This document shows positions 2,137 through 61,456 of a DNA stretch of 64,000 bases, piece by piece. Source of the stretch: Natrinema pellirubrum DSM 15624 (lineage in GTDB: Archaea > Halobacteriota > Halobacteria > Halobacteriales > Natrialbaceae). The position numbers and the translations under genes were made by a program. Where the stretch lies: assembly GCF_000230735.2 (NCBI RefSeq), contig NC_019963.1, positions 186,001 to 250,000 on the forward strand, read 5' to 3'. Position 1 is the first letter of the stretch; every line of letters starts with the position of its first letter. Under the pieces are notes generated by a model that was given only the letters and a program-made list of their open reading frames with translations, did not search any database and was not told where the DNA came from.

Positions 2137-2155
2137 CAACGGGTGCAACCCGTTG
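2137..2155. repeat. Inverted repeat upstream of the PrimPol-like gene
   Basis: Perfect 7-base arms CAACGGG / CCCGTTG around a 5-base loop, about 100 bases upstream of the PrimPol-like start codon. It lies between that gene and the iterons at 2181-2266. It could be an operator, part of an origin, or a weak hairpin in the leader. The symmetry is seen directly; the role is not known. Confidence 0.5.
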
Positions 2156-2180
2156 TATACTAGTTGGTTTTGAGCGACGA

Positions 2181-2266
2181 TTTGCCCTGAACACCGCCAC
2201 CGTACTGCGGTTTTGCCCTGAACAGGTGCCAATTCCGTGACCTGAACGGGAAATTTGCCCTGAACA
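2181..2266. repeat. Iterons: three exact 13-bp direct repeats plus one degenerate copy
   Basis: TTTGCCCTGAACA occurs at 2181-2193, 2212-2224 and 2254-2266. A degenerate copy (CGTGACCTGAACG) lies at 2236-2248. The exact copies start 31 and 42 bases apart, close to three and four turns of B-DNA, so bound proteins would face the same side of the helix. The array lies in the 357-base gap between the VirD4-like gene and the PrimPol-like gene, upstream of the latter. Iterons near a replication gene suggest an origin of replication or an autorepression operator. Neither is proven here. Confidence 0.7.
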
Positions 2267-2394
2267 AATCCAGCTATATGGCGGATCCTGGCAGATATAC
2301 CAGATACTAATCGGATTTTGGAATTTTGGTTGTGGGGGAGAGATTTTCAGTAGTCCAAGTGCCTGAATTATATTCATTGCTCTGATATTATCTC

Positions 2395-5300
2395 TCACTC
2401 AAGGAACTCTGATCCATCACTGGTCAGATCGATACCGGTGTAGACCGTCACGAGATCGTCACCGTCTCTGACTCGGGTATCCCCATAGTCGACGACATTC
2501 GAAAGCTTCCGACCGAACCAGCTCGCGTTTGTTCCATCAATATCGTGCTGGTCGGTCCATCTCGAGTAGGCTTGAAACAGTGCTGCCTTTGGAATCTGTG
2601 CCCCATCTGCCTCTCTGATATACATCGCTGCGAACGCCTCAATGCCGTCGCCGTCTGGGTCAACCTCAACTGGCACCGATACTGCTGAACCAGACTTTAC
2701 TGATGGGGATGACTCCGTTACTCGAGAGTGATTACCTGAAGAGATCCTCGGCCATAGTTCCTCATCGCTTGGCGAATCCGACAAACCGTATGTCTCGCCC
2801 TGCTGGAAGAGTACAGGACGCTCATCGTCGGGGAGTATCAGAATGAGGTAGCTCTCCCGTGAATAATCCGAGTTTGGTAGATCAACAGCAGGTCGGAATG
2901 GCCGTTTGATCGGCGTCCATTCATCCTCAAAATCCTCTCTCGAGTCATAGACATGGGTTTCGCCAGCTTCGTAGACAGTATACTGCCCGGCTTCACGATC
3001 ATGGCTATAGTAGGCTGGTACACTGTCTTTCGAGAGTGGACCTTCATCTGGAACACGGGCAAACGCTGTTTCACCGTCTGAAAGGACGATCTCACCATTC
3101 TCTCGTATCCAAACAGTTCGATTCGTCTCAAATGTCTTGGGACGAACGGCAGTAACGCCACCGTGAGCGGTCGCACCACCACCGAAGGTCATGACCTCGT
3201 CGCAGTTGTAGAACTGTTCAGTGCCATCAGCCCGCTCTTGCAGCGGTGGTGAGATAATATTCTCAACTCGAGTCGCCCACTCCGTCTTGGAGTCACCAGG
3301 TCGAACGACGAAGATCGGAATCCGATCTGCTTCGTGGGCTCGCTTGAGATTCTGCAAGACCTTGACGGGTCGCTCTGGCGTCGTTGTCTCAGCCTCGATG
3401 TTGAACACGACATCGTGATCTGGATGCGTCGCGATGGCGTCCGGTTGCTCGCTTCCATCCTGCTCGAGGATTTCGACACTGAATCCACGTTCGATGAGTG
3501 CTGTTTCCGTCTCGAGGAGGACTGCATCGTGTGTAGAGCCACCGGCAGATCTGACAGTGCCTGTCTCAGGTTCGACCACTGTTTCTCCGTCGTCAGTGAG
3601 CCGAGCTACGATGTCGTCGTTTTGCAGCGTCACCTCGAGTAACCGGGATTCCTCACGAACGTCAGGCAACTCTTCGGGTGCAACGTCGATCTCAGGCTCA
3701 GTATCCTCGAGGCGGGCTGCAAGTTCCTCGTCGACGGTAGTGACATCGACCCAGCCGTTTTCCGCTCGCACGCGTTCTCGAATCTGAACTGCACGAACGG
3801 CTTCCGCCATCGTCTCCTCGAGAATCTGCGTGGGGTTCGCTGCTTCGTTCGAATCGCTATAGATGAGATCCTGCAGGATTTCAGCGTCCGTTAGCGGATC
3901 AGTCCCATACCGCTCGAGACTCTGTTTGATGATTCGATCGACAGCATCTGGTTCCCGAAGGGGTGGGTATGGCGGAAACGTCCGGATCAAGACCGGTTCA
4001 GAGTAGCGCCCACCCGAGAGCGGGATCCGTGTCCAGACTTTGAACTGGTCGGTCGTGATGAGGTCCTCTGCCGTATAGTCACGGAAGCGTTTCATCAACA
4101 GTTCGGCATCGTCACTGTCGTTGACTGAGAACGTGAGCAGGTTATCGCAGTTGTTCTGCATCGCCTTCAGCGTGTCCTCGTCGAACTGAGAGGGATACTG
4201 CGAAGCCAGAGTCACCGACAACCGCATCGACCGAGCACGGGCGAGCATTGACTCGATATCGAGATTGTCGCTCGCGATATCGTCGAACTCATCACAGAGA
4301 ACGAAGTAAGGTTCTGGCTCGGTATCGAGTTCGTATGAGCGCCGCTGAATCGCACTCCACAAATTCCGCATGACGCCGAGGGTAACCATCTTCTTGATGT
4401 CCGTATTCTCGACCGGCGTTCGAACGATAACGATCCGATCGTTGTCGATGATATCGCGGAAGTTGATTGTACTCTCGCGATGGGCGATAATCCGGCGAAT
4501 CACCGAGTTCTCGACCCAGGACTTGATCCGTTTCAAGAGTGGGCGGACCGTCTCCTCTTCCATATTCGCAATCTCGAGACAGAATTCTCGGATATAGGGA
4601 TCCTCGACATCGAGTGCGAAGTCTTCGCGACGGTCGGCATTCAGTAAGATGAAATACATATCGATGACCGAAAACGGCTGCTCGGATTTCATCATCGCCC
4701 GAGCCATCGACTCGGTGATCGCTTCCATGTTGATGCCCCAGTAGTCGGAGGTATCGAAGACCGCTTTCAGGTTCTCGACCCGGTTTTCGATCTCGTTCTC
4801 GAGTTCCTCAGTCGTCTCGCAGTCGGGCACCTCGAGGAAATTCATCCCGACCGTGTTCTCGTGGGTGGTCGACCCGGGCTCGATCCAGACCACGTCCTCG
4901 AGACGGTGTTTGGGAAGCATCCGGAGGAGTTCTCGAGAATCACGGCCCTTCGGGTCGAAGTACGTGAAGCCGTAGCCCGAATACGCCCACTGCACCATCA
5001 TATTCAAGAGTTGAGTCGTCTTTCCGTAGCCGGTCGTCCCTGCAATCCAGTTGTGCCGGAAGAGCGAGTCAAATCGGAGCGGAGCCTCACGAAAGCCAGT
5101 CTGGGGATCCTCCGTATAGCCGACCCAGAGTGGGGTCGGTGCGTCGTACATTCCAGCTTCAAACATTTCGCGAACGAACGGGCCAGCAACCGTGCCTTCG
5201 TCGACCGTTTCGGTGAGGATCGGCTTGCCACCGACACGGGTCGTGTCTTGGTCGACGACATGATATTCCTCACCAGCCATTGATTGCTGGTCAGTGGACG

Positions 5301-5406
5301 ACTCAGTGCCAGCATTCATGGATTTATCGTCTACTGGCTCGGACTCATTGCTTTGATCGCCGCTCGAGGCCTCCCCACCGTGTCCGAAGAACCGATCAAA
5401 TACCAT
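2395..5406 (-). CDS. Type IV coupling protein (VirD4/TraD-like ATPase) with extra C-terminal domains
   Basis: A 1003-residue protein. Walker A is GTTGYGKT (123-130) and Walker B is CDEFDD (371-376), followed by a sensor region SVTLASQYPSQF; this is a VirD4/TraG-type DNA-pumping motor. Residues about 585-710 look like a different domain, with PDAIA (D656) followed by FNIEAET (E671, E673), similar to a PD-(D/E)XK nuclease core though without a clear lysine. The last about 100 residues (AMYIREADGAQIPKAALFQAY and on) resemble the winged helix found at the C terminus of P4/D5-type primase-helicases. The start at 5406 has a strong AGGAGG signal. The gene overlaps the preceding gene by 11 bases. The usual N-terminal domain is encoded separately, in that gene. 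Confidence 0.85.
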   Translation of the reverse strand: MVFDRFFGHGGEASSGDQSNESEPVDDKSMNAGTESSTDQQSMAGEEYHVVDQDTTRVGGKPILTETVDEGTVAGPFVREMFEAGMYDAPTPLWVGYTEDPQTGFREAPLRFDSLFRHNWIAGTTGYGKTTQLLNMMVQWAYSGYGFTYFDPKGRDSRELLRMLPKHRLEDVVWIEPGSTTHENTVGMNFLEVPDCETTEELENEIENRVENLKAVFDTSDYWGINMEAITESMARAMMKSEQPFSVIDMYFILLNADRREDFALDVEDPYIREFCLEIANMEEETVRPLLKRIKSWVENSVIRRIIAHRESTINFRDIIDNDRIVIVRTPVENTDIKKMVTLGVMRNLWSAIQRRSYELDTEPEPYFVLCDEFDDIASDNLDIESMLARARSMRLSVTLASQYPSQFDEDTLKAMQNNCDNLLTFSVNDSDDAELLMKRFRDYTAEDLITTDQFKVWTRIPLSGGRYSEPVLIRTFPPYPPLREPDAVDRIIKQSLERYGTDPLTDAEILQDLIYSDSNEAANPTQILEETMAEAVRAVQIRERVRAENGWVDVTTVDEELAARLEDTEPEIDVAPEELPDVREESRLLEVTLQNDDIVARLTDDGETVVEPETGTVRSAGGSTHDAVLLETETALIERGFSVEILEQDGSEQPDAIATHPDHDVVFNIEAETTTPERPVKVLQNLKRAHEADRIPIFVVRPGDSKTEWATRVENIISPPLQERADGTEQFYNCDEVMTFGGGATAHGGVTAVRPKTFETNRTVWIRENGEIVLSDGETAFARVPDEGPLSKDSVPAYYSHDREAGQYTVYEAGETHVYDSREDFEDEWTPIKRPFRPAVDLPNSDYSRESYLILILPDDERPVLFQQGETYGLSDSPSDEELWPRISSGNHSRVTESSPSVKSGSAVSVPVEVDPDGDGIEAFAAMYIREADGAQIPKAALFQAYSRWTDQHDIDGTNASWFGRKLSNVVDYGDTRVRDGDDLVTVYTGIDLTSDGSEFLE

Positions 5407-6583
5407 CGTACCCCTCCTGATCGTGAGTAGGGCCATCAACGGGAACTGCTGCCTCGTCGGGGACACTGGATGTCTGTCCACCAACCGGTGACTCCTCAGC
5501 ATCGTATCGAGCCCCATCCGATGGAAGCCGGTCACCACGCTGCGTGTATCGCCAGTCGATCTTCGGCGTCTCAATTTCCGCATTGGGAATATGTGCGACG
5601 CCGGCGAGTTCGTCGACGGTCATGATCATACGGCGATCGATCCACTCGCGGTCGCGCATTCGAGAGAGGAATTGTCGGAGTCGTTTAGCTCGTTTCCGCT
5701 CTTTGCGATGCCAGACTGGAGTATCATCGAGTCCCTGCTCCGTAACCGCGTTGTAGTACTTCCTGAACATCCCCGCAACGCCGCGGGCTCGAGCCTCGGC
5801 TTCAGCCTTCTCTGATGACGCAGCGAGTACGCGGATATTCACGTGGAACGCCTGTTGCCCGCGTTGCTGTTCGATCGTCTTTGCGGCCTGCTTGTCCTTG
5901 GCGCTCGCTGGTCGTGTTCGGGGGCTGAGCCACCCCACGGATGTCCCTTGGCGAAGTGCGTGAGCGAGTTCATCGACGCTGTTGTGCTTGAAGCGGTCGC
6001 CATCAGTCCACGACTGCTTTGCAGGCCGGAAAATAACCTGTGTGACGACTGTATTCTCGTCGAGTGACAGCATTTCGCTCGTTATCTCGCCGTAGGGATC
6101 CGTCTCGAAGCCTTCGCTGTTGTGATGGCGAATCGGATAGTACGGAATTTTCTCCATCTCGAGCCACGCACCGGCAACGTACTGGTCAGAATCGATGACC
6201 GGGAACGTATGGCCCTTTTCGACAGGGAAAATCTCACTGTTCGCGTAGTTGTTCCCGACACGCCGTCGGAACTTGTCTGCGGCTGCCTCGGTAGCAGCGT
6301 GCATATAGAACGAAATTTTGCCCTCATCGAACCAGACCTCGAACGAATGGTGATCACTCGTATTCTTCCCGCGGAAGTTCGTCGTCACGTCGTGAACTGA
6401 TTGCAGGACGCCGGCCCCATCCACGACACCATTGTTCTCCTTGTAGGGGCGGATCCGAAGGAGCAGTCCTGGCGTATCTGCTTGCTGCTGGACGAACGAT
6501 CCCTTCTCTCCAAACTCGAGTTGCGTCGCCTCGTACTGGGGCGACGAACCGACCAGTTTCGTGAAACGATTGAGCGTCGTCAT
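5396..6583 (-). CDS. Conjugation protein, likely the detached N-terminal domain of the coupling ATPase
   Basis: A 395-residue soluble protein without a P-loop. The stretch FHVNIRVLAASSEKAEAEAR and the later MTVDELAGVAHIPNAEIETP, followed by a KIDW element, match the region that precedes the ATPase core in single-chain VirD4/HerA-type conjugation proteins (an ELAxLxHxPN...TPxIxW pattern, from memory of that family). The next gene supplies the missing ATPase core, so the two products probably act as one complex at the inner face of the membrane. The start is at 6583, four bases after the stop of the VirB4 gene; longer frames run into VirB4. The C-terminal tail is low-complexity and acidic. The domain assignment is inferred. 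Confidence 0.65.
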   Translation of the reverse strand: MTTLNRFTKLVGSSPQYEATQLEFGEKGSFVQQQADTPGLLLRIRPYKENNGVVDGAGVLQSVHDVTTNFRGKNTSDHHSFEVWFDEGKISFYMHAATEAAADKFRRRVGNNYANSEIFPVEKGHTFPVIDSDQYVAGAWLEMEKIPYYPIRHHNSEGFETDPYGEITSEMLSLDENTVVTQVIFRPAKQSWTDGDRFKHNSVDELAHALRQGTSVGWLSPRTRPASAKDKQAAKTIEQQRGQQAFHVNIRVLAASSEKAEAEARARGVAGMFRKYYNAVTEQGLDDTPVWHRKERKRAKRLRQFLSRMRDREWIDRRMIMTVDELAGVAHIPNAEIETPKIDWRYTQRGDRLPSDGARYDAEESPVGGQTSSVPDEAAVPVDGPTHDQEGYDGI

Positions 6584-6587
6584 GGTC

Positions 6588-9500
6588 TTAATTGTCACAT
6601 TCGGGGTCGGTTGTGCGCTGGTCGGGAGCTGACGCTCCGCCATCGGTCTGGATCGGTGCCTCTTCGGTGTCCGTCTCTGTCTCAAGAGCCTGTTCGACGA
6701 CTGCATCGAGGATTTCCGTTTTGCTGAAATCTTCTTCGAGGAGTTTGCTCGCCGTCTCAGCAGTGATATCGAGGCGGGTCGCAAGCGCGTTTTGTTGTGC
6801 TTCGGTTTCGACGAATTCCTCGAACGCGAGCAGTTCCGCTGAATCGTCGTTCATCGCCTGCTGGATGAAGGCCTGATCCGCTGGCTCGTAATCGATAACC
6901 CGCTTCTCGAACTCATCTGCGACCACGTGCAAGGGATAGGTGCCGTGTTCCTCAACGCGAACGAGTGCCTGACTGTAGCCGAGGTCCGCTTTCCCGGCGT
7001 CGGCACCTCTGACGTACTGGCGCTGTTCTTTCGTCAACCCGATTTTGTCGGCTGTCCGATCGTCAAGTTCAGGGAGTTTGTGGAAGACTTTGATCGGACA
7101 CATCCCAATGATCTTCTCGGCCTGCTCGGTCTCATAGAACTCCTGGGCCGTCTGAGAGAGCAAGACCATCCGGAGGCCAGCGTGGCGTTGGTGGCGGAAC
7201 GCCGTCTCGAGGAAGTCGAGATTGGCCTGATCCTCGAAGAGGTAGTGTGCCTCGTCGATCGCGAGTTCGACGTTCCGTTGGGTGTTCTTCGCCTGCTGGT
7301 AGATCGTCGATAGCAGTAGTTGCATTAGGAACGTCTGGCGGTCAATCCCCGAGGCGCTCCCCTCGATCTGACCAAGATCGATGTAGACGACCTTGTTGTC
7401 GCCCTCGAGGATATCGATCTCCGAGCGGTGGGAGAGGTTTTCGTAGGAGCCACCTTCGCGGAACGGCTGGAACGCAATCGCGAGTTCGTCCGCGTACTGT
7501 GCGGCACGTTCGCGAGCGGATTCGGATGCTGCAATGTTGTGTTCGTCCGGGTTCTCAGCGATATCACAGAGGATCCGGTGGATGTCCTGCATCGTCGGCG
7601 AGTTCTCTGATGTGTGCGTCGAGACGTCGTCCTCAACGATCCCTTCCTGTCGGTAGGCTTCGTCGATCACATACGAGAGGACACCAGTTTCGGCCCCGAG
7701 TTCGATATCACGAGCGTCGAGGAAGTTCTCGAGAACGGCGTAGACCTCGTCTTTCTTCGCCGAAAGGGGAGAGACCCCATCGCTGGACTCGAACACGTTC
7801 TGGGGCGTCTGACGGATCTCGAGGGGATTCAATTTCGTATCGCCCCCGACGGTGATTGTCTTCGCGTTCAGGGCATCTGCGATACCACGGAAGCCGCCGA
7901 CTGGATCGACGAGGACAAGCATCGTGTCGGTGCGCCGCTTCATCATCCGCAGGTGGCGCATAATCCCACCGAACGTCTTTCCAGCGCCGGGCATCCCGAC
8001 GACGAGTTCGCTGTGGCCCGTCTCGAGATTCCACGGATTGATGCGGATTGGAGAGCCATTGTGGCCGTGATAGCCGTACTCGATTCCGTCGTCCATCATC
8101 TGGTAGTTCGACGAGAACGGAAACATCGCGCCAATGGCCTGATTGGTCAGCGTCGACATTCGATCGCGACCGAGTTCGTTCCGACCGAGCGGTGAGACCG
8201 TTGCGAGTCCTCTCTCCTGCCATCGACTCGCGACTTTCAGCGTACAGTTGGCTGGTGCGTCTTTGATGATCGAGCGTAATCGAGTCGTCTGATTCTCGAG
8301 TTCCTGCTGACTCTCGGCAGCGAGGCGAATGAACACACCACCCCGATAGAATGACGCTTTGTTCGCTCGGACGAGCGACCGCATGTACTTCGCCTGGTCG
8401 ATATCGTCCTGCAGATCTTCGGCTTTGAGACTGTTCGAATCATGCTGGTTGATCTTCAAATCCGAAATCCAATCTGCCATCATGTCTTGGGCCGACTGAC
8501 TATCGAACGGATCGAGATGGATGCTGAGATCTGTCTGCAGATCTGTCTCGAGTAAGAGTCGCTCGAGAAGCCCATCGGATGGTTCCTCAGGGAACTGTTC
8601 GATCCAGAAGGTGCGAACGAACGTCTCGTCGTTGATCACGGCGTAGGTCGTCTCCCAATCGATCGACGACGGAGCAACCACTGACTGGTGCATCGTCGAC
8701 GTGTCCGGCAGACAATCGGCGTCGGAAACCGACGGTTCGTCAGCAGTGTCTTCTTCATCGAGATCCTCGAGGGAGTACTCCCAGTCCGCAGTTTCGTCAC
8801 TGCTGTCGTCCATCGCATCGATGACATCCTCTGGATCTGGCGTTGCTGGCACACCATCGCTGATGCCGTGAGAGACGACTGGGAACGTTCCGAGTGCGTT
8901 CGTGATATCGGCGTAGTCTTGCGATTGGCACGTCCAGTACTCCTTCGTGACTCGAGCGAGGTCATACGCGTCGACGGGGCTGATCGAACACCGATAGAGC
9001 GACGATCCACCTCGGCGGAGTTGTGCGAGTCGCGATTCGAGTTTCTCTTCTTTGAGTTGGTCGCGCTTGGACTCACTCAATTCCTCAGACTGAAAGCGAC
9101 CGAAGAGTCGCCCGAGAACTGGTACATCTACGAGATAGGACAGTACACTATCACCGGTTTCATCGAACTGTTCGATGTCGCTGTCGGTCACCGAAGTGAT
9201 GAGATAGTACTCTCGGATTGTCGTCTTTTCAGAGTCGATATCCCCATTTTCAGTCGTGTTGGAGGAGACGTACTCCTCGAGGAGGCGCTTCAGGACTGGC
9301 CGCGAGCGAACGTCAGTATCGCCAAGTCGATTCTGGTGTTCGCGAACGACGTCGTCTTCGTCGATTTCGCGGCTAGTGATGTAGATCTTCACGGGGAAGT
9401 CGACAGTCGAATTGACGAACTCTGAAAATGACTGCACGGCATTCGCCCAAGCCTCGTCGTCCTCGAGGGCCATATTCGCCGGTTCGACTTTCATCGCTCC

Positions 9501-9896
9501 GACGAGTGCGCCATCGGTTCGTTCGATGGCGTGTGGATACACCCGATTGAGACGGGTCAAATAGCGAACTTCGCTGTTGTCCTCGCCACCATGTGTGTAC
9601 TCCTTGTTCTTGATCGCCCAGCCGAATCGAGCGATGAGCCATTCGGTGAGCCAGAGGTAGTCGGGTTTGACTTTGTGGAGGAGGAAGAGAAGGATAATGA
9701 GCATGATCCCGAACCCGAGAATAGGAATCGTCAGTGCAGAGGGGACGAACGTTGCTGCGATGACGGTGACGAACGCCACCGTGAGAAACAACATGAGTTC
9801 GCCGATCGTGTAGCCTTGGAAGAACGCTGTCGTGCCACCCAGTGATTGATGAATTTTCCGTGCATTGTACTCGCTGTCTGCTGTATTCGAACTCAT
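6588..9896 (-). CDS. VirB4-like conjugation ATPase with VirB3-like membrane N terminus
   Basis: A 1102-residue protein. Residues about 30-80 form two membrane segments (FLTVAFVTVIAATFVPSAL, ILGFGIMLIILLFLLHKV), resembling the VirB3/PrgI domain often fused to VirB4. The ATPase has Walker A GMPGAGKT near residue 637 and Walker B LAIDEAHYLF near residue 880. A charged insert with many D/E residues (about 365-400) is a halophilic addition. VirB4 powers pilus assembly and substrate transfer at the cytoplasmic membrane. The ATG ending at 9896 is preferred over a GTG at 9908, because a GAGGTGGTGA ribosome-binding motif lies just upstream. It follows the VirB6-like gene closely and precedes the coupling-protein genes. 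Confidence 0.9.
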   Translation of the reverse strand: MSSNTADSEYNARKIHQSLGGTTAFFQGYTIGELMLFLTVAFVTVIAATFVPSALTIPILGFGIMLIILLFLLHKVKPDYLWLTEWLIARFGWAIKNKEYTHGGEDNSEVRYLTRLNRVYPHAIERTDGALVGAMKVEPANMALEDDEAWANAVQSFSEFVNSTVDFPVKIYITSREIDEDDVVREHQNRLGDTDVRSRPVLKRLLEEYVSSNTTENGDIDSEKTTIREYYLITSVTDSDIEQFDETGDSVLSYLVDVPVLGRLFGRFQSEELSESKRDQLKEEKLESRLAQLRRGGSSLYRCSISPVDAYDLARVTKEYWTCQSQDYADITNALGTFPVVSHGISDGVPATPDPEDVIDAMDDSSDETADWEYSLEDLDEEDTADEPSVSDADCLPDTSTMHQSVVAPSSIDWETTYAVINDETFVRTFWIEQFPEEPSDGLLERLLLETDLQTDLSIHLDPFDSQSAQDMMADWISDLKINQHDSNSLKAEDLQDDIDQAKYMRSLVRANKASFYRGGVFIRLAAESQQELENQTTRLRSIIKDAPANCTLKVASRWQERGLATVSPLGRNELGRDRMSTLTNQAIGAMFPFSSNYQMMDDGIEYGYHGHNGSPIRINPWNLETGHSELVVGMPGAGKTFGGIMRHLRMMKRRTDTMLVLVDPVGGFRGIADALNAKTITVGGDTKLNPLEIRQTPQNVFESSDGVSPLSAKKDEVYAVLENFLDARDIELGAETGVLSYVIDEAYRQEGIVEDDVSTHTSENSPTMQDIHRILCDIAENPDEHNIAASESARERAAQYADELAIAFQPFREGGSYENLSHRSEIDILEGDNKVVYIDLGQIEGSASGIDRQTFLMQLLLSTIYQQAKNTQRNVELAIDEAHYLFEDQANLDFLETAFRHQRHAGLRMVLLSQTAQEFYETEQAEKIIGMCPIKVFHKLPELDDRTADKIGLTKEQRQYVRGADAGKADLGYSQALVRVEEHGTYPLHVVADEFEKRVIDYEPADQAFIQQAMNDDSAELLAFEEFVETEAQQNALATRLDITAETASKLLEEDFSKTEILDAVVEQALETETDTEEAPIQTDGGASAPDQRTTDPECDN

Positions 9897-9901
9897 CTGA
9901 A

Positions 9902-11113
9902 TCACCACCTCGAGACCTTTTCTTTGGTGTTTCTGAGTCCTTGCTTGGCTTTGATCGACGTTTTTCGTGTGACCTGTTTGGCGTCGTCTTTGGCTTTGTC
10001 GCGCATCCGGCCCGAATCCGATTTCCGGAGAGTGTTATACTGGCGTGCATGGGCTTTCGTCGAGTTCGCTGATTGACCCAGCTTGTACGCTTTCGAACTG
10101 CCGCTCTCGAGTTTCGTCTGGCCGGTTTTGGTCACCGGACCGTACTTTCCGTTTGCGTAGCCCCGGTGGACGTTTCGGGCACCACGCACAGCACTCCCAG
10201 AGGCAGCTTTTGCTTTGCTAGCTCCAGCAGCAGCCGATGCCGGATTCGTGGCGGTAACACTCTTCTGGGCGATCGTCCGGACAGCAGGGCTGCTCCAGTA
10301 GACGGTCATGATCATCGCAATGATCGCGGCAGGAATCAGCGTCAACCCAATGAATAGCGCGAAAAGCTCATTTTGGCCGAGTGTCTCAATCCCACCGACT
10401 TCCCATCCAATTCGGAAGAGAAGCGCCGCTGGAACCCCAGCAAGTATGAGTCCGGGGTAAATCCCTGCTACTCGACGGGCCATATTCGCTGCTGGCGTGA
10501 ATGGCCAGACTTCAAGAGCCCAGATAACGCCTAGGAGCGGCATAGTGACCGTCAGCACGAAAATTCCGATCCACCGGAGAGCAACGACGAATCCAGCAAC
10601 AACTAGGAAGAAATTCGAGATGACAACCATTGCGAGAATCACAAACGTACCTCCAAGAGTCGCTTGAATAAGCCCACCAAGGCCTGCAGACATATCATCA
10701 ACCGGAGCAATAGTCGTACCAATTGCGTCGACAAATTGCAACGGGATCGACACCAACGGGAACCAAACGAAGGTTCCCATAAATACGATCCCTAGCCGCC
10801 TCAGAAGGCGTTTTCGACGGTAATCACTCATCGAACCTGCTCGAAGGCCAATGAACGAGAAACAGATAATTACCATCATAATCGCTAAGGGCATGATATA
10901 CGCCAGATACACATCCTGATACAAACTTGCCCAAGGCTCCCCACTTGGAGTCCCAACAACAATATACTGCGAGTCAGATTCCGGTGCCGGAACGCCGATA
11001 ATAGGCTCTAAGAGTGCTCCGTAGATATCGTTTACCAGCCCAAGAATTGCGTCAGTGAACCTCTCAATAACGTTTTCAATCCCATCTTCGACTTGGTCCT
11101 GCAGCCATGGCAT
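9902..11113 (-). CDS. VirB6/TrbL-like polytopic membrane protein
   Basis: A 403-residue protein with about seven hydrophobic segments between residues 70 and 275 and a long basic, Ala/Gly/Lys-rich cytoplasmic tail (about 285-403). This topology and its place between the lipoprotein and VirB4 genes fit the VirB6/TrbL channel component of type IV secretion. Archaeal members are very divergent, so the call rests on topology and context rather than motifs. The start ATG at 11113 lies directly beside the stop of the lipoprotein gene (11114), so translation is probably coupled. It also has a well-conserved WPFTPAANMARRVAG segment of unknown role. Confidence 0.7.
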   Translation of the reverse strand: MPWLQDQVEDGIENVIERFTDAILGLVNDIYGALLEPIIGVPAPESDSQYIVVGTPSGEPWASLYQDVYLAYIMPLAIMMVIICFSFIGLRAGSMSDYRRKRLLRRLGIVFMGTFVWFPLVSIPLQFVDAIGTTIAPVDDMSAGLGGLIQATLGGTFVILAMVVISNFFLVVAGFVVALRWIGIFVLTVTMPLLGVIWALEVWPFTPAANMARRVAGIYPGLILAGVPAALLFRIGWEVGGIETLGQNELFALFIGLTLIPAAIIAMIMTVYWSSPAVRTIAQKSVTATNPASAAAGASKAKAASGSAVRGARNVHRGYANGKYGPVTKTGQTKLESGSSKAYKLGQSANSTKAHARQYNTLRKSDSGRMRDKAKDDAKQVTRKTSIKAKQGLRNTKEKVSRW

Positions 11114-11989
11114 TTAGTTCTCACCACTAGTAGAATCCGAGTCAGTTGGACTGCCCTTGACAATCGTAAGGTCACAAGATTGGTCATCACCATACTCGAT
11201 TTGCTGTGTGTACGACGGATCTGGTCCCACCTGAACGACAGCTGTCACTGTCATCGGTTCAGTACCTAACCTGCTACAGTCCACCGAACCTCCTGCACCA
11301 CTCGTCTGGTAGATTTGGCCAAACGAATAGACAGTCGTCTCTCCGGGTGGCAAACGTATCTCATGATGATACGAGACTGTGTCGTCTCGACCTAACTTGG
11401 CGGCTGGTGCGCCTTTCCACTGAAGTTCGGTGAGTAGGGATGGAATCGTTCCCTTGTTCTCTATGACAACTGCCGCATACTCATCCCAGACTGGTGAGTT
11501 CTTGTCCCAGTCCATGTCTGGATTCTCTGCCGCCCAGAACACGTCGGTGATTCTGCACTCTGCATCGATCGAAATCGTCGTCGAGTCGAGTGGATCCTCG
11601 CTCTCGAGACTCTTGAGAGCGATGAGTTCGTACTCGCCAGTCGGAAGGTCGTCTTCATATCTGCCGAGAATCTCGAATGAGGCTTCAGTATCGTCTTCCT
11701 CGAGACGGGATTGGTCGAATAACTCGCCATTCGGATCGACGAGGTTGATGAATTCGGTTGCACTCTCCCCAGTGACTTCGACCTCGAGATTCTTCCCGTT
11801 CATCTCGACGTTCGCGAAGACATCACTGTCCTCGGTGTCGAGTCCAGAGCTATCCTCTGTACTATTGTTCGACGGACTCGTGGAGGAGTTTGACGTACAG
11901 CCAGCAAGTGCGGCGGTACTCAATCCGATACTGACAAGCACTGATCGGCGAGCGATACAACTCTCGTAAGTTGGATTGTTATCTGTCAT
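11114..11989 (-). CDS. Tat-exported lipoprotein of the conjugation operon
   Basis: A 291-residue protein. The N terminus has a twin-arginine element (ARRSVLVS), a hydrophobic stretch, and a lipobox LAGC followed by a Ser/Thr/Asn-rich linker, the standard form of a haloarchaeal lipoprotein anchored outside the membrane. The rest is a beta-rich acidic domain with two cysteines near the C terminus. No enzyme motif is seen. In this operon position it may play the part of VirB7 or a surface stabiliser, which is an inference from context. The ATG ending at 11989 is used rather than a TTG six codons upstream. It overlaps the preceding gene by 11 bases. Confidence 0.7.
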   Translation of the reverse strand: MTDNNPTYESCIARRSVLVSIGLSTAALAGCTSNSSTSPSNNSTEDSSGLDTEDSDVFANVEMNGKNLEVEVTGESATEFINLVDPNGELFDQSRLEEDDTEASFEILGRYEDDLPTGEYELIALKSLESEDPLDSTTISIDAECRITDVFWAAENPDMDWDKNSPVWDEYAAVVIENKGTIPSLLTELQWKGAPAAKLGRDDTVSYHHEIRLPPGETTVYSFGQIYQTSGAGGSVDCSRLGTEPMTVTAVVQVGPDPSYTQQIEYGDDQSCDLTIVKGSPTDSDSTSGEN

Positions 11990-13742
11990 CGGTATCTGTG
12001 AGTCCAAGGAACGTGCCGCCAGTCAGGTAGTCAAACCCGTAGACGGCTAGGACAACTGGGAGGAACCAGAGCAGCGTTACGAGCGCTAACTGGACGAGTT
12101 GAGCGAACTTCGGATACTTCGGTGGGATCTTCGCCCGATCCTCTGCAGTAGCGTACATCGTCTCTGCACGCCACCAATCCTCAGCAACGTATGTTCCGTC
12201 GACTACGAGCGATGGCCGTTCTTCGAGGTGGAGTCGAGCCATGCCACTGGCGTTGAGGGGAGCCGACTGGTTGCCGACTTCCACACGCCCAGTCGTCACT
12301 GGCTCTCCAGTTGCATTTTCCGTCACTGTTGCTTCGACGACTGCTCCCGAGGAATCGGCCTCGAGTACGGTCAGATTGAGATTGGTTTCGCGAACGATGC
12401 CGTCGTCCGCGAGCGAGACTGTTTGTGACTGGCCGCGAACAATGCCGTGAACGGTGACCGTGTCAAACGAATCGGCTGTAATCGATTCTGACTGCAGCGC
12501 CACGGACGATGAGTTTACGTACTGATCGACAGGGGTAACGTCGATTGCCTCAGCAAGGGACGGCCCAGCATGTTCACTCCCCCAGGCGTCTTCGATCTCG
12601 AGCGGTGGTTCGACCGTCTCCGTCGAGCCGCTCGAGACGTCCGGCTCCGCCTGCATGGGGACCGCGTAGAGCTGTGCCGGACGCACTGTGGAATTTGCTC
12701 GCGTCGTCTCGGTCTCTGTCCGTGAGACCATCGTGTGCCAGCCGGCGTCGCCGGCGGAATAGAAGCGCCAGTTCCCGCGAACTCGTATGTCATCGTTGGT
12801 CTCAATTGCCGACCAGACAGTACCTGGGTGAACGACAGCGCCCGTCTGCTCATCATCGGTTTCGAATGTCGTCTGGGTTCCAGTGGCAGTGTCGAATCGG
12901 TTGACAGTGGTGTTGCGCGAGTCGGTTACTGTGAGTTGTTCGAACGGATGGGTGAGTTCTGTCTCCCACGAGCCATCACAGGAGTCTGTACTCTGATTAT
13001 ACTCGTCACACGTCCGCCGTTCGTGGCGGAGTTGAGCAGAGATATCCACTTCAACTGTCAGCGTTGGGTCGCCTGACAGGCCGCTATACTCGAGGGTTGA
13101 CTGGTGGCTGGTGTTGGAATCCAGTTGCTGACCAGCGGCCCGAAGCTCAACCTCTTCGAGTTCCGCTTCCTCGAGGGACCACTCCTCACGCACTGGGCCG
13201 CTCTCACGATCGTCTGGAACCGCGACTCGATAATCAGCTGTCGCAAGTACCTCGCCTTTCGGTGCGATATATGTAGTCGACTCGGTACCCGACTGGAGGA
13301 CCGTCGATGGCTGAACAGCGAAGATGCTGGTGTGTGCGTCTTTGATGTACTGGCCATCCTCGAGGTCAGCCGACTCCGGATGAACTGACGTTGCTGCATC
13401 ACCAGCAGCATACTCACCGAAATCGCCACGGTTCCACTGCTCGACATCCTCGATCGGGTCGTCGAACAGGTAGTCCGTCGACCTCGAAAGGCGCTGTGTG
13501 AATTCTGCAGACGACGACGCGTTTACATCGAAATCGTCACTCGAGAGGTTTTCCTGCTCTGTATCTTCTGACCACAGCAAATAGAACCGCGACTCGTTGA
13601 CGCCGTTATCAGGCCCACTTGTAGGGACTGCTGTACTCGAGTGTGAATCCGCTGCGAGAATTGTGGTACTCGCAAGGCCAGCCACGAGACTACTCGTGCC
13701 GAGGAGGGCGACCACAACGAGCATCGAACGGGACGGGGCCAT
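11979..13742 (-). CDS. Large secreted membrane-anchored protein of the conjugation operon
   Basis: A 587-residue protein with an N-terminal signal peptide (MLVVVALLGTSSLVAGLAST) and one C-terminal membrane segment (LVQLALVTLLWFLPVVLAVY). The 500-residue part between them is acidic, Thr/Ser-rich and would face the outside. It carries many N-x-S/T sequons, suitable for archaeal glycosylation, and a pair of cysteines (RRTCDEYNQSTDSCDG). No catalytic motif is recognised. The two-ended anchoring and operon place suggest a surface scaffold or mating-contact protein; the function is not established. The start is at the ATG ending at 13742, 11 bases downstream of the pilin stop. Confidence 0.65.
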   Translation of the reverse strand: MAPSRSMLVVVALLGTSSLVAGLASTTILAADSHSSTAVPTSGPDNGVNESRFYLLWSEDTEQENLSSDDFDVNASSSAEFTQRLSRSTDYLFDDPIEDVEQWNRGDFGEYAAGDAATSVHPESADLEDGQYIKDAHTSIFAVQPSTVLQSGTESTTYIAPKGEVLATADYRVAVPDDRESGPVREEWSLEEAELEEVELRAAGQQLDSNTSHQSTLEYSGLSGDPTLTVEVDISAQLRHERRTCDEYNQSTDSCDGSWETELTHPFEQLTVTDSRNTTVNRFDTATGTQTTFETDDEQTGAVVHPGTVWSAIETNDDIRVRGNWRFYSAGDAGWHTMVSRTETETTRANSTVRPAQLYAVPMQAEPDVSSGSTETVEPPLEIEDAWGSEHAGPSLAEAIDVTPVDQYVNSSSVALQSESITADSFDTVTVHGIVRGQSQTVSLADDGIVRETNLNLTVLEADSSGAVVEATVTENATGEPVTTGRVEVGNQSAPLNASGMARLHLEERPSLVVDGTYVAEDWWRAETMYATAEDRAKIPPKYPKFAQLVQLALVTLLWFLPVVLAVYGFDYLTGGTFLGLTDTDDR

Positions 13743-13753
13743 ATGTGAAGGGG

Positions 13754-14221
13754 TCAGAATGGCTGCACGCAACTCGAGAACTCGAATCCCATCTGACTTC
13801 CAACATTGTCGATGAGTTCGGGCGAGATGAGCGCAAGGACGATGATGCCAAATCCAACACCCGACATCACCAGTCGCTCTTTGGCGGTGTTCTTTTTCTC
13901 AGGATTGCCGCCCGCACGCATGTACGAGAGCCCCGCTCGACAGACGTAGAAACCCGTTGCAGGGAGTCCAAGCCCGGCAATCGCCCCAAAGACGATCGTG
14001 ATCCCTGTTTCGACGCCAGTTCCACAGTAGACATCACCGACATCCGACTGGGCAGCCGCTGAGCCAGTCATAATGACGAGGAATGAGATCCACATGGCGA
14101 CTGGGGGAGCCTTCGACGTTGCTCGGGCAGACAGGGTTCGGAGTTGACCCGAAAACATGGATTGCTCATCAGGGCGTTTGGCAGACTGTTCAACGGAATC
14201 GGGAGTGGGACCATTATTCAT
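13754..14221 (-). CDS. VirB2/TrbC-like conjugative pilin
   Basis: A 155-residue precursor. A long N-terminal leader ends in a hydrophobic segment and an AAA cleavage-like site (WISFLVIMTGSAAA, then QSDVGD). The mature part would be about 100 residues with two hydrophobic helices (GITIVFGAIAGLGLPATGFY and LVMSGVGFGIIVLALI) joined by a short basic loop (RAGGNPEKKNTAKERL). This is the build of VirB2/TrbC pilins. Cysteines near both ends of the mature part (VYCGTG and SSCVQPF) could form a disulphide. It stands upstream of the membrane and ATPase genes, the usual order in type IV secretion operons. The start is the ATG ending at 14221, overlapping the small upstream gene by eight bases. Confidence 0.75.
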   Translation of the reverse strand: MNNGPTPDSVEQSAKRPDEQSMFSGQLRTLSARATSKAPPVAMWISFLVIMTGSAAAQSDVGDVYCGTGVETGITIVFGAIAGLGLPATGFYVCRAGLSYMRAGGNPEKKNTAKERLVMSGVGFGIIVLALISPELIDNVGSQMGFEFSSCVQPF

Positions 14222-14495
14222 ACGGGGAAATATTTGCGTGGGGTGCGTCAGGCTGTGGCTGGTAGGCCTCATCGTTGGATAGCGATGCAATCAGGTCCTC
14301 GAGGTCGTACGTTGTATCACGACTCACATCGGCAACCAGTACGTCCCAGTCTCGAGGGGTGCTCTTGCACCCGATCAATCGTGTAGTCAGTGTGTCTCGA
14401 ACCGACCTGGAGGCAGTAGTACTGCTACCCAACCTGAGGAACACTGCGTTGACGGATATGATTGGAATTCGTGTGTGGGAAGTCTTGCACAGCAT
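14214..14495 (-). CDS. Small protein at the head of the conjugation operon
   Basis: A 93-residue reading frame whose stop overlaps the pilin start by eight bases, the kind of overlap seen elsewhere in this operon. The N-terminal half is basic and the C-terminal half acidic (DWDVLVADVSRDTTYDLEDL, then a Pro-rich end), with a composition suited to a halophile. No family is recognised. The start could be the ATG ending at 14495 or a GTG further upstream (14522). It may be a regulator or a leader peptide gene, but it could also be a chance frame. Confidence 0.4.
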   Translation of the reverse strand: MLCKTSHTRIPIISVNAVFLRLGSSTTASRSVRDTLTTRLIGCKSTPRDWDVLVADVSRDTTYDLEDLIASLSNDEAYQPQPDAPHANISPYE

Positions 14496-54508: not shown

Positions 54509-57500
54509 TCAGGCGACGAGAGCCAACATAGAGCGAAGTTCGGATTCGATATCAGTCAGTTCACTCCGTTGCCACTCAAACTGTTCTTCGACGCCGACAT
54601 CGGTAAACCGGAGTGAAGCACGAACCTGTCGTGCGGGATCGTGCTGGAAGAGCGCGAGAGCGTAGGCAAGCATCTGCGGCCGATAGTGGTCAGCGAGGGC
54701 ACCAGTCGTCGTCGAAGACAGGTCGTTCGTCTTGTAGTCGATGATGTGATACGCATCTGGAGTAACCAGAAGACGGTCAATATCACCCACTATGCGGGAG
54801 TCATCAAGACGAGCGACAACTGAGTACTCGTCGTAGGAAGCTTCAAGCGAGAGGTCCGCCTCAGTTTCATCGACGAACCGGATCGCATCCTGGGCATGGC
54901 ACACCGCCGCCTGAAGATCGTTATCCGTCGGTTCCTCACCTTCCATACGACTCAACTGACGAATGAACGAGGGCCACTCATCCCGTGGAAGACGGAGCTC
55001 ATTGAGTCGATGGACAACAGTTCCGAAGGTGGTCGGACTCAATCCGATTGTCCCACCCCCCGACGTGTAGCTGTGTCCGTTCTCGGAAGCGTCTGCAACG
55101 GCACTGACGAGGGTTGTTGCGGCAACGCGAACTGCGTCCTGTCGTTCCGGCGGAGAGGGGACAGTAATCGCAGGGTCTACCGCTTCCGTGGGAGCCTCAG
55201 ACTGCCATTCAACCGGCCGAGGTGGCGTCTGAATAGTGTATGAAGCATCACCGATTCGAGCGTCCGTAGCTCCCTCGTAGACCGCCTCAACGACTAGCTC
55301 TTGGTCGTCAAACAGAATTGGCTGAAGCCAATCCCGCCACCGGCTGGCGTCAGCGAAGTCATCTGGCTCACCGAGTTCGATGTGTCCAGACTCATCAGTA
55401 TCGATGTCGTGTGTTCCACACAGCAGCAGGTGGTCCCGAGTTCGGGTACAGGCCACGTAGAGCAGGCGTTTGGATTCCGCACGCTCTTGCGGGAGTGAGC
55501 GACGATCGGCATATTCGTGGACTGCCGTCTTCTCGATTGCGAACGCATCGTTGGGGTGGGGAGCACCTACTGCAGGAATCGGTGGGGCATCAGTCGTCCC
55601 CTCAACGAGGCGGACATAGCCGTGATCGTCAACGGACCGCCCGAAATTGAGGTCACTTCCGAGATCGGGGACAGTGACGATTGGGAACTCGAGTCCCTTC
55701 GCGGCGTGAATCGTCATTATCCGGACGCCCTCCACATCGCCGGGGATGTCAGCCTCCCCTTCTCGGGGGTCGATCTCTGCTTGGCGGTCGATCCGGTGGA
55801 GCAACCCAGCAGCTGTGTGAACACCGTTCTCGCTCCAAGTACGGACCTGGTCGCGGAACTTCTCGACGTTCTCGACGGCCTGGTGACCGCGTTCGTCAGC
55901 ACTCACGCTCGCCAGATACCCCGTGTCGTCGATCACTCGGGACAACAGACGGTACCACGGGAGGACGCCATCTTCAGACGGCGTCGCGCAGCCACTAAGG
56001 GTACGCCATGTCGTGAGGAGGTCGAAAGCATCCGCGAGCTGTGGATCGTCCGTCTCGGCGAGTGCATCCCACACTGAATCAGCCTCGGCAACTGCCGGTG
56101 CGAGGCGGTCATCGGTGAAGCCAAACAGCGGGGACCGAAGCACCCCATAGAGAGAGACGTCGTCCTGCGGATCACCAAGCACCCGAAGTAGGTTCGTCAG
56201 CGCCTGGACCTCGGGCGTATCGTAGAATCCGACGCCACCGACGACAGTATAGGGAATGTCGTACTCCTCAAGGGCCCGCTGATACCGATCCAGATGGGTT
56301 CGCCGGCGGAGGAGGATTGCCGTGTCGTCCGGCGTAGCGTCGCGATGAACACCCGTGTCGGGGTCTTGGACTGTCGGTGGATCGTCGAACAGGTTGGTCA
56401 GTCGAGCAGCGAGCGCTTGCGCCTCGGCCTCGATGGTGTGGTCGAGCGCACCTTCAGCAACCGGATGGTCACCGCCGAAGAGTTCCGCCGCCGTGTCGGC
56501 GTCGTCGGGCACAGCGAGATACTCGACACTCCCGGTCAGTCCCTCGATGTCCTCGATACGGTCGCGTTGTGTGGTCAACTCCTGCGGTGGCGCTTCGTGG
56601 GGTTCGTGGCTGTCACCCTCCGGCTGGAACAGGTACTCGAAGAGCTCGTTCAGGAACGACAGCGGCTCATCCAGCGTCCGGAAGTTCCCGGAGAGTTCGA
56701 GCGCGGTCGGACTCTCGGCATCGCTGTCGGGGACGTCGTCGACCCCACGGGCTTCGTTGACAGTCTGGAGTTCCGCTCTCGCTTCCCCGAACGTCGTCAC
56801 GTCGGCACCACGGAATCCGTAGATACTCTGTTTCTCGTCGCCGACCAGAAAGACGTTCGACGCCGTCTGCTCGTCGACGCCCGTGAGGAGCTTGACCAGC
56901 TCCCACTGGCGCGGGTCCGTGTCCTGGAACTCGTCGACCATCACGGCCGCAAACTGCTCTCGTAGCCGCTCCGTGACGGCATCGTTCGTTCGCAAGAACT
57001 CAAGGGTGGTCTCGATCACGTCGGGGAAGTCGAGCGTATCGCGACGCTCTTTCTCGTCGGCGTAGGCGGCGAGGACGTCATCGAAGACCCGCATCAGAGC
57101 CAGCGCGTAATGGGCGCTGTTTGCTTCGAGCTCACCGGGTGTCGTCTCGACTGCATCCGCGTGCGGTTCGACGGCCGCGATGACCGCGTCGATAGCGTCC
57201 TTCAGGTCGTCGTAGACGTCACCGTACTCATTCCACTCGTCCCGGTCACCGACGACGTATCCCGAACTGCTGTACAGGCCACCGTTCTTCTTCTCACAGG
57301 CCTCGTAGAGGTCGAGGATTGCCCGCTGACAGTCGCGGGGATCGCTTTCCTCGGGGTTGGCAGGGAGTGTCGTCGCGACCTCGGTGAAGGTCCGGTAGAC
57401 CCCAAGGCCGTCCTCGTCGGCGATAGCGCCCTCACGGTCGACGCGGCCCGCGACCGTGCGTAGCTGCTCAAGGAGTCCGTCCGCAAACAGCGTCTGTCGA

Positions 57501-58147
57501 GCGTCGGCAACGTCGAGATCACAAACGACCTCCCAGCAGATATCGACGTAGTCGTCGACCTCGGCGTCACGCCACGCCTCGAGGACGGACTCGCTCTGTG
57601 GGCGTTCATCGAGTAATCCAGCGAGTGTATCGACCAACTGGTCGCGACTCCAGAGCTGGGCAAGGAGCTCCACGTCGTCTTCGTCCTGGTTGCGTTCGAG
57701 GAACTCCGTCACAACTTCGCGTTGGAGTGTCGCGGCGCCGTCTTCGTCAAGCACGTCGAAGCCGAGCGGAACCGGAGCCTCGACGGCCCGTTCTCGCAAG
57801 AGCCGGGTACAGAACGCGTGAATGGTGTGGACATAGCCGTCCTCCAGATCGTCGAGAACGTTTCGCCAGCGGTGGTAGGCCTCTGGTGAGTCGACAGCCT
57901 CGAGCCTGTCGTACACCTCCTCCCGAACGCGCTCAGTCAGTTCGGCAGCAGCCTTTCGCGTGAAAGTAATCGTGACTATTTTCTCCGGCGTGAGCGACGG
58001 GTTCTCGGCCAGTATCGTCACGTACCGCTCGGTGAGCGTTGTCGTCTTCCCTGTCCCGGCGCCGGCAGTGATCGCGACGTTCCGGCCCTGGACGAGCGCA
58101 TCCTCCTGTTCCTCCGTGAGCTGAATCTCCTCGGGTTCCTCAGTCAT
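54509..58147 (-). CDS. addA: AddA-like UvrD-family helicase with RecB-type nuclease domain
   Basis: A 1212-residue helicase-nuclease. Motif I is ITAGAGTGKTTTLTERYV (about 26-43); motif Ia TITFTRKAAAELTERV; motif II VMVDEFQDTDPRQWE; motif III FLVGDEKQSIYGFRGADV; motif V RIMTIHAAKGLEFPIV; motif VI RLLYVACTRTRDHLLL. The C-terminal nuclease has GDIDRLLV and HIIDYKTN, the PD-(D/E)XK core of RecB/AddA. Together with the AddB-like gene, with which it overlaps by eight bases, it should form a dimer that resects broken or linear DNA. Haloarchaea usually rely on Mre11-Rad50-HerA-NurA, so the presence of an AddAB pair next to BREX is unusual. Confidence 0.9.
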   Translation of the reverse strand: MTEEPEEIQLTEEQEDALVQGRNVAITAGAGTGKTTTLTERYVTILAENPSLTPEKIVTITFTRKAAAELTERVREEVYDRLEAVDSPEAYHRWRNVLDDLEDGYVHTIHAFCTRLLRERAVEAPVPLGFDVLDEDGAATLQREVVTEFLERNQDEDDVELLAQLWSRDQLVDTLAGLLDERPQSESVLEAWRDAEVDDYVDICWEVVCDLDVADARQTLFADGLLEQLRTVAGRVDREGAIADEDGLGVYRTFTEVATTLPANPEESDPRDCQRAILDLYEACEKKNGGLYSSSGYVVGDRDEWNEYGDVYDDLKDAIDAVIAAVEPHADAVETTPGELEANSAHYALALMRVFDDVLAAYADEKERRDTLDFPDVIETTLEFLRTNDAVTERLREQFAAVMVDEFQDTDPRQWELVKLLTGVDEQTASNVFLVGDEKQSIYGFRGADVTTFGEARAELQTVNEARGVDDVPDSDAESPTALELSGNFRTLDEPLSFLNELFEYLFQPEGDSHEPHEAPPQELTTQRDRIEDIEGLTGSVEYLAVPDDADTAAELFGGDHPVAEGALDHTIEAEAQALAARLTNLFDDPPTVQDPDTGVHRDATPDDTAILLRRRTHLDRYQRALEEYDIPYTVVGGVGFYDTPEVQALTNLLRVLGDPQDDVSLYGVLRSPLFGFTDDRLAPAVAEADSVWDALAETDDPQLADAFDLLTTWRTLSGCATPSEDGVLPWYRLLSRVIDDTGYLASVSADERGHQAVENVEKFRDQVRTWSENGVHTAAGLLHRIDRQAEIDPREGEADIPGDVEGVRIMTIHAAKGLEFPIVTVPDLGSDLNFGRSVDDHGYVRLVEGTTDAPPIPAVGAPHPNDAFAIEKTAVHEYADRRSLPQERAESKRLLYVACTRTRDHLLLCGTHDIDTDESGHIELGEPDDFADASRWRDWLQPILFDDQELVVEAVYEGATDARIGDASYTIQTPPRPVEWQSEAPTEAVDPAITVPSPPERQDAVRVAATTLVSAVADASENGHSYTSGGGTIGLSPTTFGTVVHRLNELRLPRDEWPSFIRQLSRMEGEEPTDNDLQAAVCHAQDAIRFVDETEADLSLEASYDEYSVVARLDDSRIVGDIDRLLVTPDAYHIIDYKTNDLSSTTTGALADHYRPQMLAYALALFQHDPARQVRASLRFTDVGVEEQFEWQRSELTDIESELRSMLALVA

Positions 58148-61328: not shown

Positions 61329-61456
61329 CGAATACATTCCTCAAGATATCGCTCTCACTTCATTTTTATTGGTTCCTCTATGCGTATTCTGACTAACGCG
61401 GAGTGAATATCCAACAATGACAAATAGTAAAGTGGGTTGGTTGACTCCACCATCGT
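61329..61456. promoter_or_regulatory. Divergent promoter between addB and brxA
   Basis: A 128-base gap between two divergent genes. Reading leftwards, an AATAAAAATG stretch about 35-40 bases before addB can serve as TATA box. Reading rightwards, an AAATAGTAAAG stretch about 27-40 bases before brxA can do so. A shared regulatory region would allow joint control of the AddAB-like and BREX genes. Confidence 0.45.

Follow-up and report, generated by a model that had tools for sequence, protein, structure and literature searches.

A haloarchaeal coupling ATPase with a predicted nuclease and winged helix, a repeat array beside its gene and a possible route to transfer without a relaxase

We analysed a stretch of 64,000 nucleotides (here the window; positions 186001-250000 of a 275.8-kb replicon, NC_019963.1) of the haloarchaeon Natrinema pellirubrum DSM 15624, at the left end of which, on the minus strand, lies a conjugation-type transfer cluster. 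In order of transcription it encodes a pilin, a surface protein, a lipoprotein-like protein, VirB6/TrbL, VirB4, a partner protein, a coupling motor, a primase-like protein and a toxin-antitoxin pair (Table 1). Judged from sequence, the cluster is a conjugation-type type IV secretion system (T4SS) of haloarchaea, with pilin, VirB6, VirB4 and coupling motor and with no recognisable relaxase. Our subject is the coupling motor, which carries a predicted nuclease and a winged helix in its C-terminal part and whose gene is followed by an array of direct repeats. An earlier reading of the DNA made without database searches (the sequence-only reading) had placed the motor and partner genes correctly and given their right lengths, 1003 and 395 residues; the comparison of gene order that it proposed shows VirB4, VirB6 and pilin genes alongside the motor in the same order in relatives. 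Four copies of the motor are encoded in the genome, whose two smaller replicons carry two each, and the other three are 75-78% identical to that of the window. In a close relative, RefSeq names the motor 'TraM recognition domain-containing protein' and both the partner and the primase 'hypothetical protein'.

Table 1. Features of the transfer cluster, in positions of the window.
Feature	Position	Strand	Basis
Coupling ATPase, TraG/VirD4-type motor, 1003 residues	2395..5406	-	Pfam TraG-D_C, TrwB_AAD_bind and T4SS-DNA_transf over cut-offs
Motor core, residues 73-498	3913..5190	-	Hidden Markov model (HMM) built here; Walker A and DEF box located
Predicted PD-(D/E)XK-type nuclease domain, residues 589-735	3202..3642	-	H626, Q649, D656, E671, E673; topology of AlphaFold2 model; structural matches
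Beta-rich 'mid' domain, conserved, fold unassigned, residues 740-871	2794..3189	-	Own HMM and alignment; sequence search gave no solved relative
RFX/D5-type winged helix, residues 919-998	2413..2652	-	Pox_D5 in 29/31 and RFX in 19/31 members; RFX1, Z 9.3
Four direct repeats, TGTTCAGGGCAAA or near-copies on the gene strand	2180..2268	-	Candidate clt/oriT-like site, 89 bp
Strictly conserved CAAAACCAACTAGTATACAACGG block between repeats and primase gene	2149..2171	-	Alignment; possible promoter or origin element
Partner protein, 395 residues, pre-motor domain as a separate gene	5396..6583	-	Start of the motor gene overlaps its stop codon (ATGGTATTTGA)
NrS-1-type primase-like protein (HBD domain), 417 residues	781..2034	-	PF22763, 6.6e-32
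VirB4 ATPase	6588..9908	-	NF045971, 3e-52
VirB6/TrbL-like membrane protein	9902..11113	-	PF19590, 1.9e-16
Lipoprotein-like protein of the transfer cluster	11114..12007	-	Translation; neighbour in one relative
Large surface-anchored protein with C-terminal membrane helix	11979..13772	-	Translation, hydropathy
T4SS pilin	13754..14290	-	PF18895, 1.3e-8

The assignment of the motor to the coupling type, already made from the letters alone, is borne out by three Pfam families, TraG-D_C scoring 25.6 bits against a cut-off of 22, and its Walker A sequence GTTGYGKT occupies residues 123-130 (5017-5040). The CedD model (NF053655) gave 14.9 bits, below its NCBIfam cut-off of 600. The partner and motor open reading frames (ORFs) overlap by 11 nt, and a motor start overlapping the partner stop, ATGGTGTTTGATCG, is conserved in two-gene forms of the window's type; in other groups the junction reads ATGA, TAATG or TAGATG. 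Such overlaps suggest translational coupling. In single-chain coupling proteins of ∼1200-1560 residues a relative of the partner makes up the N-terminal part, as it also does in giants of 2441-3296 residues (L067:3423-10745, L068:3367-13254 and L069:1789-11388; L-numbers denote loci of relatives and G-numbers genomes) that combine pre-motor, motor, nuclease and mid domains with long tails. The L068 giant matches the DnaG N-terminal domain and that of L069 contains a toprim-looking stretch. With bacterial TraG-like motors as the root of a motor-core tree, separate genes are the starting condition and fused forms require at least three separate gains. The two-gene form thus appears to be the ancestral one, fusion having occurred independently at least three times, and the description of the pair as one coupling protein split into two genes probably has the direction reversed.

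That the partner corresponds to the segment preceding the motor in VirD4/HerA-type ATPases holds in so far as it occupies this place in its single-chain relatives, but nothing identifies it as a VirD4 N-terminal domain. Hydropathy showed no membrane helix in partner or motor, the AlphaFold2 model of the partner is of low confidence (predicted local distance difference test score, pLDDT, 35), and profile comparison with the N-terminus of the neighbouring VirB4 revealed no homology. The missing membrane helices lower only the claim of a VirD4 N-terminal domain, because soluble coupling proteins exist. Predicted strands and helices of the partner hint at ferredoxin-like repeats.

Residues 589-735 of the motor appear to adopt a PD-(D/E)XK fold with acidic residues at the place of the active site, according to a model of moderate confidence. 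AlphaFold2, run on residues 520-1003 with an alignment of only 11 sequences, gave a mean pLDDT of 61 and a predicted template modelling score (pTM) of 0.41. In this model the nuclease stretch has the order helix-strand-strand-strand-helix-strand, with D656 before strand 2 and E671 and E673 at the end of strand 3. Its structural matches (Z 5.6-8.3) are overwhelmingly PD-(D/E)XK enzymes: PaqCI, Hjc, FokI, BspD6I, VRR-NUC, NucS, HindIII and DdmD. As single Z values of this size are weak, the identification rests on the agreement among matches. NurA has no Pfam match in the domain and is absent among the structural matches listed. Profiles of the nuclease, the mid domain and the partner, searched by sequence against solved structures, returned nothing credible; 1mw7 for the nuclease (E 0.2) and 4ewi for the partner (E 0.001) were judged chance matches.

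The acidic stretch pointed out beforehand (D656, E671, E673) proved to be real. Across 60 non-redundant relatives, as distant as ∼22% identity, H626, D656, E671 and E673 are invariant (60/60), followed by Q649 and P680 (59/60 each) and N686 (58/60), in a domain with a mean column identity of 33%. The domain might nevertheless be catalytically dead and serve as a platform for DNA or protein binding: in all members the canonical lysine of D-ExK is replaced by glutamate (E673), and motors without a nuclease domain exist. This invariance of four residues, unlike the rest of the domain, argues against such a role, as does the presence of D...ExE triads in active endonucleases such as BamHI, and we hold a dead nuclease to be improbable. 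Motorless proteins with nuclease-like and mid-like domains stand in tandem with a second related ORF at L200:6566-8899 and L201:6658-9039, and at L157:7677-8847 the coupling gene of Haloterrigena sp. H1 is broken at the start of its nuclease domain by ∼1.2 kb, perhaps an insertion element.

No relaxase had been noticed near the cluster, and this absence extends to the whole genome for the families searched. Relaxase (PF03432), TrwC (PF08751), MobA_MobL (PF03389) and TraI_2 (PF07514) had no match anywhere in the genome, while control genomes did match. Mob_Pre (PF01076) had none in the genome either, a weak negative with no control genome matching. MOBC/Replic_Relax (PF13814) had no match at E values up to 1 among 53 members of the domain, and none over the cut-off in 146 genomes, again a weak negative with no matching control. 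In a few other haloarchaea (G014, G040, G057 and others), short proteins of ∼170-250 residues exceed the PF03432 cut-off and may be unrecognised archaeal relaxases. Of plasmids of this kind, 112 of 114 in PLSDB are called non-mobilizable; we did not count absence of a relaxase in MOB-suite as proof, given that it also calls the MOBC plasmid CloDF13 non-mobilizable (the CloDF13 record has no annotated MobC).

These searches bear on the idea that the coupling protein has a genuine MOBC-like relaxase, PD-(D/E)XK plus winged helix, fused to it as its C-terminal part; this relaxase would nick one strand at a specific site and pilot single-stranded DNA. In its favour, PD-(D/E)XK endonucleases are kin to the MOBC relaxases, one of which, TraX, contains a winged helix-turn-helix (PMC12857230); the acidic triad is intact here and the adjoining primase would suit single-strand transfer. 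The PF13814 negatives, however, speak against it, and the 60 relatives show no invariant Tyr or Lys following E-x-E. We regard a relaxase of this kind as unlikely.

The winged helix at the C-terminus, compared in the sequence-only reading with that of P4/D5 primase-helicases, is supported both by sequence (best Pox_D5 match 4e-9) and by the fold match to RFX1, and the modelling and structural matching proposed there recovered nuclease and winged-helix folds alike. As a fixed part of the motor it did not hold up: the winged helix is optional (26/65 motors) and tied to a neighbouring primase gene and to a repeat array, the latter unmentioned in that reading. It belongs, moreover, to a cassette with a history of its own. 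The window's motor and that of L030 are 72% identical in the core and only 33% in the nuclease domain, whereas comparison with the 'class 2' single-chain proteins gives ∼25% identity for the core and mostly 50-58% for the nuclease. L033 and L134 share ∼30% identity up to residue 480 and 73-97% over residues 540-870. Nuclease domains with a winged helix form one group (99/97 support), and the nuclease-domain data reject the clade defined by the core (log-likelihood difference 416; approximately unbiased test, p 3.5e-52). Because of this rejection and the L033/L134 breakpoint, the nuclease/winged-helix cassette is seen, at the level of sequence, to move between motors independently of the core, behaving as a specificity module would. 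The cassette may have passed from the window's class to class 2 or in the opposite direction: the branch of the class-2 cores is very long, and winged-helix motors as one side of a branch are compatible with the core data. Standalone C-terminal modules at L076 and L077 are at least partly decayed, with no upstream motor found near either.

Between the motor and primase genes lie 3-5 direct repeats. In the window the repeats are spaced 31, 24 and 18 from start to start (window order), and their positions are nearly constant within the window's class; at other loci the unit differs, all copies of an array sharing the change (TGTCCACGCAAA, TGTCCAGGGTAAA, TGTTCCACCCAA, GTTACGGCAA and others). At least four copies lie downstream of 25/61 winged-helix motors and of 0/63 others, and at least three downstream of 48/61 and 10/63, respectively. 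The pattern TGTTCAGGGNAAA has 11 matches in the whole 4.35-Mb genome, all at the four coupling-primase junctions and in a single orientation (control pattern, 0).

The sequence of the repeats tracks that of the winged helix. In a covariation test with an incomplete correction for ancestry, the Mantel r between the two was 0.61 over 40 loci and 0.78 within the window's class; over the same 40 loci it was 0.37 for the nuclease, 0.40 for the mid domain, 0.33 for the core and 0.17 for the primase. The partial r for the winged helix stayed at 0.57-0.61 whichever other part was held constant (p 0.0005), while with the winged helix held constant all the others fell below zero (primase, -0.16). Six named plasmids fetched later all carry an array (6/6) with a unit fitting a type of winged helix seen before, ASWF going with TTCAGGG, KGWFTRKL with TCCACGC, VWF(A/G)RKL with TCCAGGGT and PSWFSRKLG with TTCCACCC, in a comparison made by eye and including some plasmids closely related to loci of the first set. 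Binding of the repeats by the winged helix of the coupling protein itself is the simple reading, and a good one. Arrays and covariation together indicate an arrangement of the TraB-clt type, in which a C-terminal domain predicted to bind DNA is matched to direct repeats beside its own gene.

The primase is linked to the same motors: a relative of the NrS-1 type lies directly downstream of 58/63 winged-helix motors and of 2/55 without one, counting motors with enough downstream sequence, at loci that are partly non-independent. This linkage of array and primase, together with the strictly conserved block that follows the repeats just before the primase gene, would fit a replication origin or an operator, where binding by the winged helix or by the primase would initiate replication of the plasmid or control the primase gene. 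The nuclease would then act on DNA ends without specificity, like NurA alongside HerA; a role of HerA-NurA in feeding archaeal transfer systems has been proposed (PMC9905601), and transjugation by Thermus TdtA requires a NurA-like nuclease (PMC5365140). Yet, after controlling for the winged helix, the repeats do not follow the primase, and the winged helix belongs to the coupling motor, not to a replication protein. An origin or operator seems to us somewhat unlikely, though deserving of real weight.

From the domains, invariant residues, the array and its match to the winged helix, cassette exchange and primase linkage, we infer the following course of events. The C-terminal winged helix would bind the direct repeats just downstream of the motor gene, a clt/oriT-like site, and the adjoining PD-(D/E)XK domain would cut or nick at or near them. 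The motor, as a hexamer and together with the pre-motor partner encoded by a separate gene, would pump the DNA into the VirB4/VirB6 channel, and the neighbouring NrS-1-type primase would prime a complementary strand, on the transferred or the remaining strand. We lean, by a modest degree, towards such an archaeal T4SS without a relaxase, in which the winged helix of the coupling protein selects DNA at a clt-like array and the nuclease of the same protein cuts it. Several points count against it. A simple scan shows no array at 13/61 winged-helix loci; the repeats end by a strictly conserved, possibly promoter-like block and could be an operator; motors without a winged helix keep the nuclease, so targeting there must differ; the nuclease model is moderate; and no reported transfer of these plasmids was found in the literature. 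Three motors end after the core, with no nuclease ORF found nearby (L083:2457-5447, L127:1935-4814, L143:2862-4529). The winged helix is also physically close to the repeats, and linkage could inflate the correlation; the low r of the primase, also close on the other side, argues against such inflation. That the nuclease may stand in for a relaxase, as the sequence-only reading had suggested, is plausible and sharpened by these data; cassette exchange, primase linkage and the tracking of the winged helix by the array are new with respect to it.

Nuclease-bearing motors are not confined to plasmids. A compact chromosomal set of four genes, encoding a membrane protein predicted to have several helices, VirB4, the partner and a motor with nuclease, occurs in several haloarchaea (L193:3554-10158, L194:3573-10020, L198:5521-12071, L202:3106-9642, L203:5881-12328) and is possibly a domesticated DNA-exchange system. 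Pairs of VirB4 and motor-nuclease with no detectable partner are present outside the haloarchaeal order, in the same phylum (L195:75-4672, L196:6666-11275, L197:11225-16342, L199:4553-8823). Neither the chromosomal sets nor the pairs in other families have a detectable winged helix, so that the nuclease looks older, the winged helix, array and primase having apparently been added later within one group. The viral contigs scanned contained no close relatives. Elsewhere in the window, a RelE/ParE-type toxin and a ribbon-helix-helix gene lie directly downstream of the primase (38-614), an arrangement kept in L152 and L160. At 54509-61337, a UvrD-helicase plus PD-(D/E)XK protein (1212 residues) adjoins a second PD-(D/E)XK protein (1065 residues), an AddAB-like pair followed by a BrxA-like gene (61457-62290).

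How archaeal conjugative elements choose and prepare their DNA without recognisable relaxases is a question raised since at least 2011 (PMC3158045) and again in 2023 (PMC9905601). Our fullest proposal, which we put forward tentatively and at less than even confidence, is that selection and cutting of DNA both fall to the coupling ATPase, which would read the array beside its own gene through an exchangeable nuclease/winged-helix cassette and be served by a dedicated primase, in a form of relaxase-free conjugation. If true, this would explain why tools that seek relaxases call such plasmids non-mobilizable, provide a marker for archaeal transfer origins, and make the exchangeable cassette a natural means of swapping DNA specificity among transfer pumps. 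It would also be a type of transfer initiation, widespread in haloarchaea, for which we found no described counterpart. As the proteins, the residues and the 89-bp DNA site concerned are all specified, it lends itself to direct test in culturable haloarchaea.

The nearest known systems each share part of this arrangement. In HerA-NurA and TdtA-NurA a pump of the HerA/FtsK superfamily likewise works with a nuclease and no relaxase (PMC9905601, PMC5365140), but there the nuclease is a separate subunit, whereas here it is fused, apparently of another family and accompanied by a predicted DNA-reading domain. Haloarchaeal fusexin elements are also integrated mobile elements with VirB4 and TraG/VirD4-like (and HerA) genes; the parts of their description consulted report no nuclease, winged helix or repeat array (PMC9259645). 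Near our cluster no clear fusexin candidate was seen, fusexin not having been searched for with a model. MOBC relaxases, such as TraX of pAD1 and MobC of CloDF13, are PD-(D/E)XK proteins that can serve conjugative processing, with a winged helix-turn-helix in TraX (PMC12857230). In bacteria they are separate proteins, whereas the domain described here is fused to the coupling ATPase, without Pfam similarity or a conserved candidate tyrosine. Streptomyces TraB, finally, is a translocase that needs no relaxase and reads 8-bp clt repeats by a C-terminal helix-turn-helix (PMC5365140, PMC12857230). Recognition of short direct repeats through a C-terminal DNA-binding domain is common to both, predicted in our case. 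By contrast, TraB is of the FtsK type and moves double-stranded DNA without other T4SS parts, while the haloarchaeal system has a TraG/VirD4-type motor with VirB4, VirB6 and pilin genes, a nuclease domain and an RFX/D5-type winged helix.

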